Positions 5,031-49,475 of a DNA stretch of 64,000 nt are shown one piece after another. Both the position numbers and the translations under genes were made by a program. The DNA is from Halobaculum marinum. GTDB lineage: Archaea > Halobacteriota > Halobacteria > Halobacteriales > Haloferacaceae. Within the stretch, counting starts at the first letter, position 1; every line of letters begins with the position of its first letter. The DNA is taken from positions 248,001 through 312,000 of the forward strand of contig NZ_CP119991.1 of assembly GCF_029338555.1 (NCBI RefSeq). The letters are read 5' to 3'. Below the pieces are notes generated by a model. It was not told the DNA's origin, did not search any database, and saw only the letters and a list, made by a program, of their open reading frames with translations.

Positions 5031-5182
5031 ACCGCGGTTTAGTAGTTCCTCACGGGCGCCTTCCGGTCCGTCGGCTGGGCACCCCGGCAGTCGAGCGCGC
5101 GGCGCGGAGGACTGCCAGCCACGACGACATTCGGATATGAAAATCTATGACAGTATAAACTGCGATTCTGAAAATTAAATGC

Positions 5183-8178: not shown

Positions 8179-8658
8179 CTACCGCAGGACGTCGAACACC
8201 GCGCGGACCGCTTCCTCGTCGACGTCGACGCCGCGACGCTCCAGCACCTCGACGGCGACGGCGATGTCCCAGTCCTCGAACGACTGCAACACCGACAGCT
8301 CCGCGTCGTGCAGTTCGCGTTTCGAGAGGTCGCCCTCGTCGAGGCCGTGCTTGGAGGCGACGGCGCGGATGCGACTTCGGTTGGCCGCGAGGGGGTCGAA
8401 CGTCTCGTCGCGCACGTAGTACGACTGCTGGTTGGTCTCGTCGAACCCGAACGGCTCCGGGAACTCCTCGACGTCGTCAACGGCGTCCACGGTGTCGGCG
8501 GGCTCGGACTCGTCAGCCGACTCCGATGGTGCCTCAGGAACTGCCGGGCTCGCGGTCGTGGTCTCCGTGGACGATGCATCGGCATCGGACGGGTCCTCGT
8601 CCGAACCGCTCTGGAGTGCGTCCCCGAGTCCACCGAATCGGTCCGCCTCGTCAGGCAT
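8179..8658 (-). CDS. Acidic small protein coupled to ParA; candidate partition partner
   Basis: 159 aa. The first 90 residues are low-complexity and very acidic (Asp, Glu, Ser, Thr, Ala), probably disordered. Residues about 95-159 form a compact, mostly helical domain with basic positions (ANRSRIRAVASKHG, SKRELHDAELSVLQSF). The gene starts inside the end of parA (8-nt overlap), as second genes of ParA operons do. No ParB, CopG or other named family is recognised. By position it is the best candidate for the DNA-binding or adaptor partner of ParA, acting on the 8-bp repeat arrays nearby; that role is inference. Confidence 0.65.
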   Translation of the reverse strand: MPDEADRFGGLGDALQSGSDEDPSDADASSTETTTASPAVPEAPSESADESEPADTVDAVDDVEEFPEPFGFDETNQQSYYVRDETFDPLAANRSRIRAVASKHGLDEGDLSKRELHDAELSVLQSFEDWDIAVAVEVLERRGVDVDEEAVRAVFDVLR

Positions 8659-9616
8659 CGGCCACCTCCGCGCGCTTGCGCTCGGGTTCGGGGCTTGCCA
8701 GTTCGACGCGCTCGGCGAGGGCGTCGAACGCTGCGATCTGATCGCTTGAGGGCTGCCACTCCGCCAGGGGGAGACCGTGCCGGGTCGCATCGTTGATCGC
8801 CTTCCGGTAGCGGATGCCAGGCTTCGGGATATCTGGATATTCGGATGTGACGCTGCGTGCGTCGTCTGCGACGGCGTCGAAGAAGTCGGGGTCGACACGC
8901 GCGTACTCTGGGAGGTAGTGGTCGAACCCCTCGTAGGTAAGGTCCATCGCGGTCTGCCCGAACTCCTCATTCGTGTTGAGTTCGCGCGCGAGCATCTGTT
9001 CGCCGCTCTCCTGTGCGAGGCTCTCGCGCATCATGTTCGGCGTGATGGCGACGATGTCGAGCGGCACCTCCTTGCGGAGGGGGACGAGCGAGCGGCGGAG
9101 CAGGTTCTCGAGTCCCGAGACCGACCCGGCGCTCGGGATCAGCGGGACGATGACGCGCTGGACCGCCACGAGGGCGGCGTCGTGGAGCATCCCGCGGCCG
9201 CCCGGTGGGTCGATGAGTACGTAGTCCACGTCGCCGGCGACGAGCGGTTCGACGATCTCACTGCGGATCAGTTTGACGCCGAAGCTCTGGTCTTTCATCT
9301 TCCCCTCCACCGTCTCGAGGTCCTCGGTCGCCGGGAGCAGGTGCAGGCCGAACTCCGTCTCCACGAGCAGGTCGCTCGGGGCGGTGTCACCGAAGATGGC
9401 GTCGCCGATGTCCTCGCCGTCTGCGAGTTGGCGTTCGTACCCGAGCAGACTCGTGAGGTGACCGTCCTTGTCGAGGTCGACGATCGCGACCTCGTGCCCG
9501 CGCTCGGACAGTTGGTGGGCGACGTTCAGTGAGGTCGAGGTCTTCGTGACCCCGCCTTTGAACAGCGAGACGACCGCGCCAGGGTACCCCTCCAACCCGA
9601 CGCTCATCGCGGACAT
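8651..9616 (-). CDS. parA: ParA-family partition ATPase
   Basis: 321 aa, deviant Walker A ATPase of the ParA/Soj family. Visible motifs: deviant Walker A KGGVTKTST (residues 20-28, with the signature lysine), IVDLDKDG (45-52) and DYVLIDPPGG (131-140, Walker A-prime/B). It lacks an N-terminal HTH, so it belongs to the short ParA type that needs a separate DNA-binding partner. Start ATG 9616, alternative 9607. Upstream lie the 8-bp repeat arrays at 9629-9660, 9683-9730 and 9766-9805. It probably drives segregation or positioning of the DNA carrying those arrays. Confidence 0.9.
   Translation of the reverse strand: MSAMSVGLEGYPGAVVSLFKGGVTKTSTSLNVAHQLSERGHEVAIVDLDKDGHLTSLLGYERQLADGEDIGDAIFGDTAPSDLLVETEFGLHLLPATEDLETVEGKMKDQSFGVKLIRSEIVEPLVAGDVDYVLIDPPGGRGMLHDAALVAVQRVIVPLIPSAGSVSGLENLLRRSLVPLRKEVPLDIVAITPNMMRESLAQESGEQMLARELNTNEEFGQTAMDLTYEGFDHYLPEYARVDPDFFDAVADDARSVTSEYPDIPKPGIRYRKAINDATRHGLPLAEWQPSSDQIAAFDALAERVELASPEPERKRAEVADA
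8829..8852. repeat. 8-bp phased repeat array inside parA (3 units)
   Basis: Units ATATCTGG, ATATTCGG and ATGTGACG follow each other at exact 8-bp spacing inside the coding sequence of parA (encoding part of SEYPDIPK). They match the consensus of the intergenic arrays. With three units and coding constraint, chance cannot be excluded. Confidence 0.45.
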
Positions 9617-9628
9617 CCCCCCGTCCGC

Positions 9629-9660
9629 ACATCGACGTACGTGGATGTGAGCATATCCAC
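9629..9660. repeat. 8-bp phased repeat array, parA promoter-proximal (4 units)
   Basis: Four adjacent octamers: ACATCGAC, GTACGTGG, ATGTGAGC, ATATCCAC. The array begins 13 nt upstream of the parA start, so a protein bound here would cover the parA promoter. GTACGTGG and ATGTGAGC recur in the array at 11133-11164. Confidence 0.6.
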
Positions 9661-9682
9661 CGGTCCGAGTGTGGCTACTTAG

Positions 9683-9730
9683 ATATTACCCCATTCGGAG
9701 ACTCAGATATCCGAATATGTAGATATCCTC
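9683..9730. repeat. 8-bp phased repeat array (6 units)
   Basis: Six octamers in phase from 9683: ATATTACC, CCATTCGG, AGACTCAG, ATATCCGA, ATATGTAG, ATATCCTC. The last three match the ATATCCGA consensus most closely. Located between parA and the methyltransferase gene. Confidence 0.65.
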
Positions 9731-9765
9731 TTGTAATGACGCTCTCGTGCGGCGATCGCTGGTGG

Positions 9766-9805
9766 CTATTCGAATATCCACATCGTTGCATATGTCGATA
9801 TTTGC
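9766..9805. repeat. 8-bp phased repeat array (5 units)
   Basis: Five octamers in phase: CTATTCGA, ATATCCAC, ATCGTTGC, ATATGTCG, ATATTTGC. Third of the arrays in the parA-methyltransferase intergenic region. Confidence 0.6.
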
Positions 9806-9868
9806 AGATTCAGTAGTGTACCGAGGCAGGAAGGCGTCTCGATTCTAGGGGCGCGCAAGTTGGAGTGC

Positions 9869-10462
9869 TTATCGTGTGGCAACGATGACTCCGACCGACT
9901 CTGTGATGATTCCGATGTCCGTGATGGTGAACCCCGCATCCATGAGGAGATCTGCGAGGGTCCCCATCGGTGGCAACGTCTCGTAGTCGCTCGGGGACTG
10001 CTCCGGACCGAATCGCATCTTGTCGGCGACGACGATACAGCGCGGGGTCAGCGACGCGAGACCCTCGATAGCGGCTCGTAGTTCGTCCTCTCCCCCGTCG
10101 TCGTAGGCCATGTAGAGGGCGTAACTGGCGATCACGACGTCCACCGGTTCGTCGGCTTCGGGGTCACGGAACGACCCGTGTCCGAACGAGACGTTCTCGA
10201 TGCCGCGGCGTTGCGCCTTCTCACGGGCGTACTGGAGCCACTCGTCGTAGACATCGCGTCCGAGGACGCGGTGACAGGTCGATGCGAGTTCGAGAGCGAC
10301 GATGCCCGTCCCTGTACCGACGTCAAGTACCACGTCGTCAGCCGTGACGGGTGCGTGCGAGAGCAGGTACGACAGGCACTGCTGGTACACCTCGTCCGTC
10401 TCGCAGTCGGTATCGTAGTCCATCGCGGTGTAGCCGTCGCCGCCGCCTTCCGTATTGGTCAT
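9869..10462 (-). CDS. Class I SAM-dependent methyltransferase
   Basis: 197-aa cytoplasmic Rossmann-fold methyltransferase. Motif I is VVLDVGTGTG (residues 44-53), followed by LGRDVYDEW for the ribose-binding acidic position and DVVIASYALY for motif IV. The order and length match the Methyltransf_11/25 type; the acceptor is unknown. It sits between blocks of the 8-bp repeat arrays in the ParA region, but has no overlap with parA and may be unrelated. Start ATG 10462. Confidence 0.8.
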   Translation of the reverse strand: MTNTEGGGDGYTAMDYDTDCETDEVYQQCLSYLLSHAPVTADDVVLDVGTGTGIVALELASTCHRVLGRDVYDEWLQYAREKAQRRGIENVSFGHGSFRDPEADEPVDVVIASYALYMAYDDGGEDELRAAIEGLASLTPRCIVVADKMRFGPEQSPSDYETLPPMGTLADLLMDAGFTITDIGIITESVGVIVATR

Positions 10463-10585
10463 CCGGTCGGGGGTAGGACGTGCGTGTCGATAAGCCTCTC
10501 AAGAGTTATCGCTGACACTTCCTGTCGACCCCCGCGCGATACGTAAGATACCCACAGAACCGTGTCGACTCCAGAGCACACCTGC

Positions 10586-10649
10586 AAGTCCACATATCCG
10601 AATATCCGACTGTCCGAATATCCGAATGGGCGGAGCTTCGAATACTCGA
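10586..10649. repeat. 8-bp phased repeat array (8 units)
   Basis: Eight octamers in register: AAGTCCAC, ATATCCGA, ATATCCGA, CTGTCCGA, ATATCCGA, ATGGGCGG, AGCTTCGA, ATACTCGA. Three units are identical ATATCCGA, giving the clearest consensus in the window. Confidence 0.75.
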
Positions 10650-10683
10650 CCACCATCCGCCGATACACGACGCAATATGCCAA

Positions 10684-10739
10684 ATATTCAGATATCCAGA
10701 TATCTATAGGTCCGCAGATTTGGATTTCACAGTATCTGC
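10684..10739. repeat. 8-bp phased repeat array (7 units)
   Basis: Units from 10684: ATATTCAG, ATATCCAG, ATATCTAT, AGGTCCGC, AGATTTGG, ATTTCACA, GTATCTGC. The first three are strong, the rest degenerate but still in 8-bp phase. Confidence 0.65.
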
Positions 10740-11091
10740 GCCAACTCGATATCCACTCCGTCATTGGAACCGAAGCCGGAACAATGAGAACACCGTCCAC
10801 TGATCGTCGAACAAGCGATCGCGACTGTGGATCCCCTGACGAGGGACACGAGTGCAGCAATTGCAGCCGTGAGGGACAATCCAACTGCACACGACGGCGA
10901 CACCCAGTGTTGAGTCTCCCGGGGAACTGTCGTCGGTGACACCACGTAGATCGACATCAGAGCCACGAACACTTCGAAAACCCACTCGTTGAGTGAGCCA
11001 GAGAGCACACTACGAGGTGACCAACCTCGTAAGGATACGCGGCTGACCGATCAGGCCGAATGGCTACAGATGTGAACATTTAGAGAACCAC

Positions 11092-11123
11092 ATATCTGCA
11101 TATCCAAGTATGTGAATGTGTGT
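11092..11123. repeat. 8-bp phased repeat array (4 units)
   Basis: Units ATATCTGC, ATATCCAA, GTATGTGA, ATGTGTGT at 8-bp spacing. Confidence 0.6.
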
Positions 11124-11132
11124 AGCCGTTGC

Positions 11133-11164
11133 GTACGTGGATATGGAGATGTGAGCACATGCGC
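11133..11164. repeat. 8-bp phased repeat array (4 units)
   Basis: Units GTACGTGG, ATATGGAG, ATGTGAGC, ACATGCGC. Shares GTACGTGG and ATGTGAGC exactly with the array next to the parA start, which argues against chance. Confidence 0.6.
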
Positions 11165-11326
11165 ACAACGACACACCGATAGGCGAGAGCTGATGGGAGA
11201 TACGCAAGAGTCGCGAATCCCGTCGACACGAGGGCACGGGAGAATTCGAAAGAGCCGACGACCGAGTTACACGGTAGCTGGTGCGTGGCTCACGTCTTAT
11301 CCACTCCTAACGCGAGTGGTCAGTGG

Positions 11327-24743: not shown

Positions 24744-24748
24744 TTTTT
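24744..24748 (+). terminator. T-tract terminator candidate behind the DUF7344 gene
   Basis: A run of five T, 34 nt after the stop codon and preceded by a GC-rich segment, as at many archaeal transcript ends. Weak evidence. Confidence 0.3.
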
Positions 24749-24757
24749 CAGATGCGA

Positions 24758-24781
24758 ATCGGTAGATATCGACATATCCAC
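24758..24781. repeat. Isolated 8-bp phased repeat array (3 units), 14 kb from parA
   Basis: ATCGGTAG, ATATCGAC, ATATCCAC at exact 8-bp spacing between the converging DUF7344 and coxB genes. Same consensus as the ParA-locus arrays, so it may be a secondary binding site. Confidence 0.5.
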
Positions 24782-24870
24782 ACAGCCACTGTTGGTCGGT
24801 CGCTGGATACGTCCCCGACAGACCGACCACGAGCGGCGTCATCGTTCCGCGTCTGCAGCACCTGACGGTG

Positions 24871-46475: not shown

Positions 46476-46648
46476 TCGGCGAGGTGACACAGGTACAGGT
46501 CGTCAACGTCGTCCAGATCCAAGTGATCGTCCAGGTCGCGGCGGCAGAGACGACGAAGAAGGCGGTGCGGGACAACGAGAAGCGCCCGACGAAGATCGTC
46601 AACGACGGGCGCAAGAAGGGCAAGGACAAATACAAGTCGTCCGGTGAT

Positions 46649-47585
46649 CGCGACCGCGACGGCCTCTCGGACGATCAAGAGCGCCTCATTAGCACTGACC
46701 CGCGCGACGTCGACACCGACGGCGACGACCTCAACGACGGCACCGAGGTGCTCGTCGAGGGGACCGACCCGCTCGACCGGGACACCGACGACGACGGCCT
46801 CGACGACGGCGACGAGGTCGAACTCGGCACCGACCCGACGCGGGCGGACACCGACCGCGACGGTATCGACGACGGCGACGAGGTTGACGACGGGAGCGAC
46901 CCGCTGGACCCCAACGACCCGGACGAGACCGACGCCGACCGCGACGGCCTGACGCTGGCCCAAGAGCGCGCGCTCGGCACCGACCCGGAGGACGAGGACA
47001 CCGACGGCGACGGCCTCGACGATGGCACCGAAGTCGACGCCTACGACTCGAACCCGCTCGCCGTCGACACCGACCGCGACGGCCTCGACGACGGTGAGGA
47101 GGTCGACCTCGGCACCGACCCGACCCTCGCGGACACCGACGGCGACGGCCTCACCGACGCCGCCGAGGTCGAACGCGGCACCGACCCGACAGATCCGGAC
47201 GACCCCGCGCCACCGGACCCCGACGGTGACGGACTCGGGACCGCCCAAGAGGAACTAATCGAGACCGACCCCGAGAACGCCGACACGGACGGCGACGAGT
47301 TGGACGACGGTGACGAGGTGACCGTCTGGTTCACCGACCCGCTCGACCCCGACACGGACGGTGACTCGATCCCGGACGGTGTCGAGGTGCAAGAGGGGTC
47401 CGACCCGCTCGACATCAACGACCCGACACCGATCGACACCGACGGCGACGGCCTCTCCGACGACACGGAGGAGACGCTCGGCACGAACGTGACCGACCCC
47501 GACACCGACCGCGACGGCTTCCTCGACGGGACGGAGGTCGACGACGGGACCGACCCGCTCGACCCGGACGACCCGCCGCGAGTCG
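46649..47585 (+). repeat. Thirteen thrombospondin type 3-like calcium-binding repeats
   Basis: Units of the form D-x-D-x-D-G-(L/I)-x-D-G-x-E followed by LGTDPxxxD. These acidic loops bind Ca2+ and give a stiff, extended segment in known TSP3 proteins. Confidence 0.85.
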
Positions 47586-48849
47586 AGTCGCTCGGGGTCG
47601 CCAGCGCCTGCGAGAACCTCACGGTCACCAACCCGAACAACGTGCCCGTGACGGTGACCGTCGACGGCCCGAACGGCACCGACCAGTTCGGTGTCGCGGC
47701 GGGCGAGACGAGACGACTCGCGCAGGGCCCGGGCGACTACGTGCTGACGGCGAGTACGGGCGACGGGACGGCAGTCCCGCTCGGTACGGAGAACGAGTCC
47801 GAGGTCGCCGTGACGGTCGAGTCGTGTCCGACGGTCAGCGAGAGCCTCACGGCGGTCGTGGGCGAGGACAACGTCTCCGTGACGAACCCGAACGACGCGC
47901 CAGTCGTCGTGGCCGCGACCAACGAGACCGGCGTCGTCCAGAACGAGACCGTAGCGGCGGGCGACACGACGACGCTCCAGTTCGCCCCCGGCACCTACAC
48001 GCTCACGGCACAGACCGACGCTGGTGATCCGGTTCCGATCAACGGCGAGCCGTCGCTGTCCGTCTCCGTCGCGGCACCGGTCGGACAGGCGTCGCTCACC
48101 GCGACTGTGGACAACGCCACGCTGACGGTGTCGAACCCGTCGACGGCGAACGCGACGGTGAGCCTCGCCAACGAGTCAGGCGTACTCGAATCGTTCGAGG
48201 TGGCCGCGGGCGGAACTGCGACACGAGACGCTCTGGTGCCCGGCAACTACACGCTGACCGCGACCGGCGAGGGGGGCGAGACGGCGCTCATCGACGGTGC
48301 GGAGTCCGTCTCGTTCACCGTCGAGGCCCCCGAGTCGCCCACGACGGCGGAGTTGGCGTCGCTCGTCGGGACCGTCGAGGGTCAGTCGCTGCTGGTCGAG
48401 AACCCCAATTCGGTCGACGTGACGGTCGAGGCGACCAACGAGACGGGAGCCTCCCGTGTGCTGACCGTGCCGGCAACGTCGACCGAGTCGCTGGTCGACC
48501 TCGAACCGGGCGACTGGAATGCGACGGCGACGACGGAGAACGGGCAACCCGTCCCGATCAACGACAGCGACGTGTACGCGTTCACCGTCGAGCCCCCCGA
48601 GCCACCGCTGACGTCGCTCCTCGTCGTCGTCGACACCGCCGAGTTCAGCGTGGAGAACCCCAACCCGGTCGGCGTCTCGGTGACCGTGACCAACGACTCT
48701 GGACCAGTCGTGCTCGCGGCAGTGGGTCCCGACGAGAACGTCACCGTCGACGGCCTCACACCGGGCAACTACAGCCTGAACGCGACGACCGACGACGGAC
48801 GGGATGTCGCGCTCAACGGCAACGACACGCTCGTGATTACCCTCGAAGC

Positions 48850-49260
48850 GGCCGCCACATCGACGGCCACGTCGACCACGACGCCCACGGCAACCCCGAC
48901 AGGTACCCCAACGGGCACCGCTTCTCCGACGGCCACCGCGACTCCGACAGCCACAACCACTCCGACGGCCACCGCTACTGCCACGACGACGCCGACACCA
49001 ACGCCCACGGCCACCGTGACGCCGACGGCGACCCCGACGCAAACGCCGACCGCAACCCTGCCACCCACCGCGACTCAAACTGCAACGGCTACCCAGCCGC
49101 CCACGACCACGGCGACGCCGGCACCGTTCGTGATCCCGCCAGCCAGGCCGGGGTCACCCACGGCGACGCCGACGGGGCCGACGACCACCGCGTTCCCGAC
49201 CGTGACGGCGACCGCCTCCCCGACGTCCACGGCGGACGTGACTCAGATGACGTTCACGAC
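48850..49260 (+). repeat. Thr/Pro-rich low-complexity stalk coding region
   Basis: Codes for tandem TATPT- and TPTATA-type repeats, typically heavily O-glycosylated in haloarchaeal surface proteins; places the repeat domains away from the membrane. Confidence 0.75.
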
Positions 49261-49475
49261 AACCACTCCTAACGTCACCGCGACCGGGAACAGGTCACTC
49301 ACACCGGTCGCGTCGCTCGCTGCGCCAGTCGACGACGGAGGGCGGCTGTTCGTCTGGGGGGCGAACCTCTCGCTGATCGGGCTGTTGGGGCTGCTACTGG
49401 TTCGAACCCATCACCGGTAGCGCCTCCGAACGAGGGTCGACGCCGTCCAGCGACCCGCCGACGGTCGGCGAGCGG

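Follow-up and report, generated by a model that had tools for sequence, protein, structure and literature searches.

How could a haloarchaeal megaplasmid be segregated by a ParA protein with no ParB beside it, and which DNA site would serve as its centromere? The question is raised by a locus in Halobaculum marinum. It lies in a stretch of 64,000 nucleotides (the window; positions 248,001 to 312,000 of contig NZ_CP119991.1, G000:C3:248001-312000) within C3, a secondary replicon of a 3.5-Mb genome in three contigs. The locus consists of a parA gene, an overlapping gene encoding a small acidic protein, here called the partner, and intergenic arrays of degenerate octamers. The appearance of centromeres on archaeal chromosomes and plasmids has been listed as an open question in a review of the field (PMC5120986).

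We consider the locus to be a type-Ib-like active partition system of a circular Halobaculum megaplasmid, in which the partner binds the centromere and the arrays constitute both centromere and operator; we put the probability of this at about 0.8. The arrays are almost confined to one replicon, parA and the partner gene are linked, and partner and repeats co-vary, observations that speak for the partition-system reading. The gene-level features of a type I system are present, i.e., a ParA with a deviant Walker A motif, an operon-linked partner, and a repeat-bearing cis site near the operon.

ParA and its partner

A preliminary description of the locus, made from the sequence of the window, reported a short ParA with the motif KGGVTKT. 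This was confirmed by translation and by a Pfam match (Table 1). The N-terminus carries SLFKGGVTKTST, and the deviant Walker A motif, which is of the KGGxxKT class, begins at residue 17. The protein has no N-terminal DNA-binding or helix-turn-helix domain, which agrees with the type Ib subgroup (ParF, delta). The parA start at 9607 agrees with the starts in Halobaculum relatives. An alignment of ParA proteins displays a threonine in place of the Walker A glycine of KGGxGKT in the clade of this locus, named the 8-base-pair (bp) clade after its repeats, and an alanine in the clade of the type found on C2, the other megaplasmid of the genome (KGGFAKT). When genome contigs were scanned with the single protein, H. 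litoreum was the only haloarchaeal match, the others being distant bacterial ParA proteins.

The partner was described as a protein of no recognised family overlapping ParA, and this still holds. No convincing family match was found in Pfam, NCBIfam, PHROG or PDB sequences, and a match to ParB or CopG was not found by sequence either. The Pfam search did not reveal a ParB CTPase domain, and a profile search of PDB sequences gave no likeness to SegB. When 21 members of the partner family were compared with Pfam and PDB sequences, none matched omega or ParG.

The partner is composed of a conserved N-terminal motif (DEADRFGGLGDAL), a disordered acidic linker, and a C-terminal domain at residues 68-159. 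The C-terminal domain was confidently predicted by AlphaFold2 using 81 sequences (predicted local distance difference test score, pLDDT, 94). In the model an extended segment with the invariant Tyr81 and the conserved Arg83 is followed by a helix at residues 84-103, a second helix at 113-126 that opens with KRELHDA, and two more helices. This order of elements suits a ribbon-helix-helix (RHH) dimer that places its strands in the major groove. The model is that of a monomer, without the shared sheet of such a dimer. Foldseek gave nothing significant in the PDB for the full-length model or the C-terminal domain, nor in BFVD for the domain. On balance an RHH fold is plausible and seems somewhat favoured, and the partner is proposed to be the centromere-binding protein.

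The octamer arrays

Seven intergenic arrays are found between positions 9612 and 11167. They are 38-72 bp long, 394 bp in total, and hold approximately 49 units, or about five to nine per array. The same seven had been listed in the preliminary description, and all were returned by decoding with a two-strand tandem-repeat hidden Markov model (HMM). The model was fitted at periods 7, 8, 9, and 10, and favours period 8 over the others; the gain is about 100 nats when only the window is used and about 190 nats when H. litoreum is included. Decoding of the reversed window as a control gave one weak segment.

The units are contiguous, degenerate and ATATCCGA-like. The contiguity and the 8-bp phase reported earlier were upheld, whereas ATATCCGA must be regarded as a loose consensus since only about half of the octamer positions are well conserved, and the units occur in both orientations. 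The best-kept core is an ATAT box plus a YCRN spacer. The self-identity at lag 8 of three intergenic blocks is 0.37-0.48, compared to 0.25 in dinucleotide shuffles, with z-values of 4.0 (9617-9830), 5.1 (10500-10760) and 4.9 (11060-11170); out of 500 dinucleotide shuffles, none or one reached these values. Self-identity is mostly raised at lags 16 and 24 as well, while lags 7 and 9 show no such rise in these three blocks. The autocorrelation that had been suggested as a check gave a signal above shuffles (z 4.0-5.1), and the period-8 signal also exceeds that of unrelated DNA.

A short array is also found inside the parA reading frame. It falls in a four-residue insertion (the TSEYPDIP region) of this ParA clade, and an array is found at the same place in H. 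litoreum (L040:4759-4781). H. lipolyticum has the variant ATYPEIP at the insertion, and no array was seen there.

Restriction of the arrays to the parA replicon

The genome was searched with the pattern ATATN4ATATN4ATAT, using the reversed pattern as control. Allowing at most one mismatch, all six sites in the genome are on C3: the par locus accounts for five, and the sixth is at C3:50.4 kb. The control gave none. Allowing at most two, 22 of the 23 sites are on C3 (reversed control, 5). All ten sites in H. litoreum are on the plasmid. Eight congeners that do not have this parA contain 0-3 sites each, 13 in total versus 12 in the reversed control. The genome-wide search ties the arrays to the parA replicon; they are not spread through the genome, nor through congeners without this parA.

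C2 encodes its own parA and partner and has a 9-bp array, and a pattern for the C2 array matches the C2 locus alone. Correspondingly, a pattern for the nonamer of the L006 type matches genome G007 solely just upstream of the parA on its contig C3. Two replicons with 8-bp repeats also carry octamer arrays far from parA (G000:C3:50422-50475, equal to L034:1491-1544, and G008:C2:28457-28484). These distal arrays are possibly a second centromere-like site.

A haloarchaeal family with a 9-bp step

Most relatives of this ParA have a short acidic protein encoded after parA. Of 293 genomes of the order, 142, representing 51 of 87 genera, were matched by the partner profile, and 100 of the loci were retrieved for locus analysis. 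parA adjoins the partner gene in all 100, with the partner start located -51 to +3 bases relative to the parA stop. For each locus the repeat period was scored over 470 bp preceding parA. Period 9 came out best in 86 of the 100 loci (mean z9 6.8 vs. z8 -0.6), and period 8 did not reach a z of 3 in any of them. A stricter test that discounts codon periodicity was passed by 85 of the loci, compared to 12 of 129 pieces of the window and, among AT-richer pieces taken from other loci, 2 of 33.

The nonamer differs from one partner clade to the next, e.g., TGTAGATTA, TGTACAATG, CATGAATAG, and GTACGATTC, but the 9-bp step is constant, and in multi-member clades period 9 is preferred over period 8 by 120-740 log units. 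The same arrangement of parA, partner, and array is found on the plasmids pNRC200 (z 7.1 at period 9) and pHME505 (z 10.0); here the genes are annotated as encoding a 'ParA family protein' and, for the partner, a 'hypothetical protein'. The link between ParA, partner and arrays that was first suggested for the window was supported in all tests run. As for the suggestion of a new segregation system, no description of the locus was found in the open-access literature, and one may exist among subscription papers. The system is not confined to this locus; it belongs to a haloarchaea-wide family in which 9 bp is the usual step.

A more distant haloarchaeal ParA family (L033) has a strong 9-bp array with an AACGA core (z 12.6) and a different small partner (IYIPDDVLDEMEDTYLES...). 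As this array lies outside the family, the 9-bp step may extend beyond it.

The derived 8-bp clade

Period 8 is confined to three Halobaculum species, i.e., that of the window, H. litoreum, and H. lipolyticum. The last of these was excluded from the HMM training, and octamer arrays were still decoded upstream of its parA (z 5.9). No octamer array was found when the octamer HMM was applied to L006, L002, and Natrinema zhouii. In the ParA tree the three 8-bp loci form a clade (100/99) nested among 9-bp relatives; N. zhouii is next, followed by the 9-bp L006 clade. The number and layout of the arrays vary among the species, while the period is constant. If one A is removed from ATAATGTAG, the nonamer of the L006 clade, the result is similar to the octamer ATATGTAG. 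In the alignment of 81 partner sequences only the 8-bp partners are longer after the first helix, by two residues, and after the second, by three. The 8-bp step is a derived state, and the clade would have taken it up when the shape of its binder altered. As this is a single evolutionary event, insertions and step can only be said to correlate.

The relative in N. zhouii serves as a natural control. Its ParA is 47% identical to that of the window, and the partner, which is encoded on a plasmid (L269 3411-3965), has kept the N-terminal motif (RNLSGLGESL, cf. RFGGLGDAL) but has a different, Cys/His-containing C-terminal part. Upstream of its parA no 8- or 9-bp arrays were found (z9 2.0), and two copies of GTGTATCAGAAYACT are seen in their place. 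This fits a modular partner with an N-terminal motif for ParA and a C-terminal domain for the repeats.

The H. litoreum plasmid NZ_CP126157.1 contains two near-identical copies of parA (L040 and L041) about 218.5 kb apart, with small indels only. Two par systems on this plasmid were considered and rejected, the duplication being likely assembly redundancy.

Comparison with known partition systems

The TP228 ParF-ParG-parH system of Escherichia coli has, like the present locus, a ParA-type ATPase and a small partner whose N-terminal tail is flexible and whose C-terminal domain binds DNA, a role that is predicted here. The repeats of parH are reportedly separated by 4-bp spacers, which gives an 8-bp step. 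However, TP228 has its AT-rich part in the spacer, while in the octamers here conservation is highest in the ATAT box, and the partner has no sequence match to ParG. MetJ, an RHH repressor, binds tandem contiguous 8-bp met boxes and is thus a precedent for an 8-bp step, but it is a metabolic repressor and has no ParA.

The parallel drawn in the preliminary description was the omega protein of the streptococcal plasmid pSM19035. Its delta-omega-parS system shares with the locus a ParA without an N-terminal domain, a small non-CTPase partner, and short repeats that follow each other without spacers and occur in both orientations. Full stimulation of the ParA ATPase in pSM19035 takes at least four contiguous heptads (PMC9499535), and the arrays found here, with about five to nine units each, exceed this number. 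The step is 7 bp in pSM19035, compared to 8 bp here and 9 bp in the family, and period 7 was rejected for the window. The partner furthermore has no sequence match to omega and is extended by a long acidic stretch at its N-terminus and by additional helices towards its C-terminus. The comparison thus stands for the mechanism only; neither sequence nor fold could be matched to a known RHH protein.

Among archaeal systems, SegAB of Sulfolobales and some Euryarchaeota also comprises a ParA homologue whose gene is overlapped at its downstream end by that of a small DNA-binding protein, and has its sites ahead of the operon. SegB binds 13-bp palindromes dispersed over the chromosome (PMC12284271), unlike the contiguous 8- or 9-bp arrays on one plasmid described here, and no sequence link was found. 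The AspA-ParB-ParA system of the Sulfolobus plasmid pNOB8, likewise an archaeal plasmid system, has a small protein that coats DNA as a superhelix (PMC9178275), but uses three proteins including a chimaeric ParB, where the present locus has two and no ParB. Canonical ParABS systems differ in that their ParB is a CTPase, a domain that the partner does not have. The locus would work like a type Ib system, with whose gene-level features it agrees, but by its sequence falls outside the omega, ParG, and SegB families.

Proposed mechanism and alternative explanations

In the proposed mechanism ParA would be the nucleoid-bound ATPase motor. The C-terminal domain of the partner would act as an RHH-type dimer reading one repeat unit per dimer, and adjacent dimers would pack along the contiguous 8-bp units and coat each array. 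By analogy with pSM19035, each run of about five to nine octamers would hold a small partner filament showing many N-terminal tails to ParA on the nucleoid, where the N-terminal motif on its flexible acidic tail may reach ParA and stimulate ATP hydrolysis, thereby stabilising the plasmid. Since array 1 abuts the parA start, the partner bound there would likely also repress its own operon. Assuming 10.5 bp per turn, it can be calculated that an 8-bp step rotates each dimer by about -86 degrees relative to its neighbour, giving some four dimers per superhelical turn, while 9 bp corresponds to about -51 and 7 bp to about -120 degrees.

It could be argued that the arrays are operators only, the partner repressing its own parA operon in a locus without a centromere. 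The array at 9612-9660 does touch the parA start, and dual binding to centromere and operator is known from small partition proteins, ParG among them (PMC7308502). Seven arrays spread over 1.5 kb and flanking an unrelated gene are, however, far beyond the needs of an operator, further arrays are found at least 15 kb away on the same replicon, and the number and layout of arrays differ by species at a constant period. We regard this explanation as improbable. Replication-origin iterons bound by Orc1/Cdc6 or a Rep protein are less probable still. An orc1 gene is found just upstream of parA on pNRC200 and another about 2 kb downstream on pHME505, and cdc6 is about 9 kb from parA on C2, but the nearest Cdc6_C gene on C3 is about 56 kb off. 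In about 86 of 100 loci the arrays accompany parA, and the repeats co-vary with the partner clade and vanish when the partner domain is swapped although parA remains.

There is very little to suggest that the period arises from codon structure or simply from AT-rich, low-complexity sequence between genes. The arrays are indeed rich in A and T, and signals at 6, 9, and 12 are seen in coding DNA with this GC content; but 8 cannot be divided by three. Dinucleotide shuffles, which preserve the composition, lack the signal, and none of the 129 and none of the 33 null pieces passed the 8-bp test. The arrays are also confined to one replicon, and no comparable ones were found in other, unrelated AT-rich intergenic regions of this genome.

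Some observations do weigh against an active partition system of the proposed kind. The polyploidy of haloarchaea has led to the argument that their segregation requires no centromere, random partitioning being sufficient in Haloferax volcanii (PMC6063281). The partner fold is unmatched, the RHH protein TraM appearing only at rank 10 in Foldseek (E 8.5), and hhalign gave no match between the C-terminal family and haloarchaeal RHH_1 peptides, although the RHH_1 set was small and its peptides short, which makes this weak evidence. About 14 of the 100 family loci have no clear 9-bp array in the region scored, and the corresponding region of L012 is GC-rich and without period 9. Coding DNA also yields some period-9 signal, and the 9-bp count consequently has a background, as seen from the 12 null pieces passing the strict test.

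Within the partition-system reading, it may tentatively be suggested, at slightly less than even odds, that the family represents an unrecognised class of haloarchaeal centromeres with fixed 9-bp contiguous repeats and new acidic-tailed binders. One clade would have been rebuilt to 8 bp (about 50 units) together with insertions after the first two helices of the binder, so that the filament pitch evolved, and the binder fold may be undescribed for centromere-binding proteins.

The family provides a candidate centromere and its binder, both readable from sequence, for about half of the sampled haloarchaeal genomes, including the classic plasmids pNRC200 and pHME505. The change from 9 to 8 bp would be a natural experiment on how a DNA-coating protein sets its step, and knowledge of the system would allow haloarchaeal plasmids to be sorted into compatibility groups and stable vectors to be made.

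Replicon context and other features

C3 makes up approximately 9% of the genome. The contig looks terminally redundant: G000:C3:1-47.6 kb corresponds to 279-326.7 kb, with ends that match apart from small indels, and identical Cdc6_C genes are spaced 279,019 bases apart. Given this redundancy, the true C3 is probably a circular megaplasmid of about 279 kb, and positions 31020-64000, the right half of the window, would be in the assembly twice.

Table 1. Coordinates of genes and repeat arrays in the window
Feature	Position	Strand	Evidence and remarks
parA, ParA/Soj-type ATPase, 318 aa	8651..9607	-	Pfam AAA_31, E 9.6e-23; translation
Partner gene, 159 aa, acidic	8179..8658	-	Overlaps parA 3' end by 8 bases
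Array 1	9612..9660	+	Tandem HMM decoding and lag-8 test; immediately upstream of parA start; likely operator too
Array 2	9670..9728	-	Tandem HMM decoding and pattern search
Array 3	9763..9813	-	Tandem HMM decoding
Array 4, most regular (ATATCCGA)	10577..10648	+	Tandem HMM decoding; also found by Tandem Repeats Finder (TRF)
Array 5	10680..10738	+	Tandem HMM decoding and pattern search
Array 6	11057..11122	+	Tandem HMM decoding and pattern search
Array 7	11130..11167	-	Tandem HMM decoding
Short array inside parA frame	8827..8850	-	HMM decoding; pattern search
Outlying array, same replicon, about 15 kb off	24746..24788	+	HMM decoding; pattern search
Short, weaker octamer-like stretch	5126..5147	-	HMM decoding, posterior 0.85
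Class I methyltransferase gene	9869..10462	-	Pfam Methyltransf_25; between arrays 3 and 4

The methyltransferase gene is judged to be a bystander because it is not found beside parA in H. lipolyticum. Elsewhere in the window, tandem coding repeats rich in D and G are found at 46692-47359 inside a large open reading frame (46484-49420), and these resemble thrombospondin type 3-like calcium-binding repeats.

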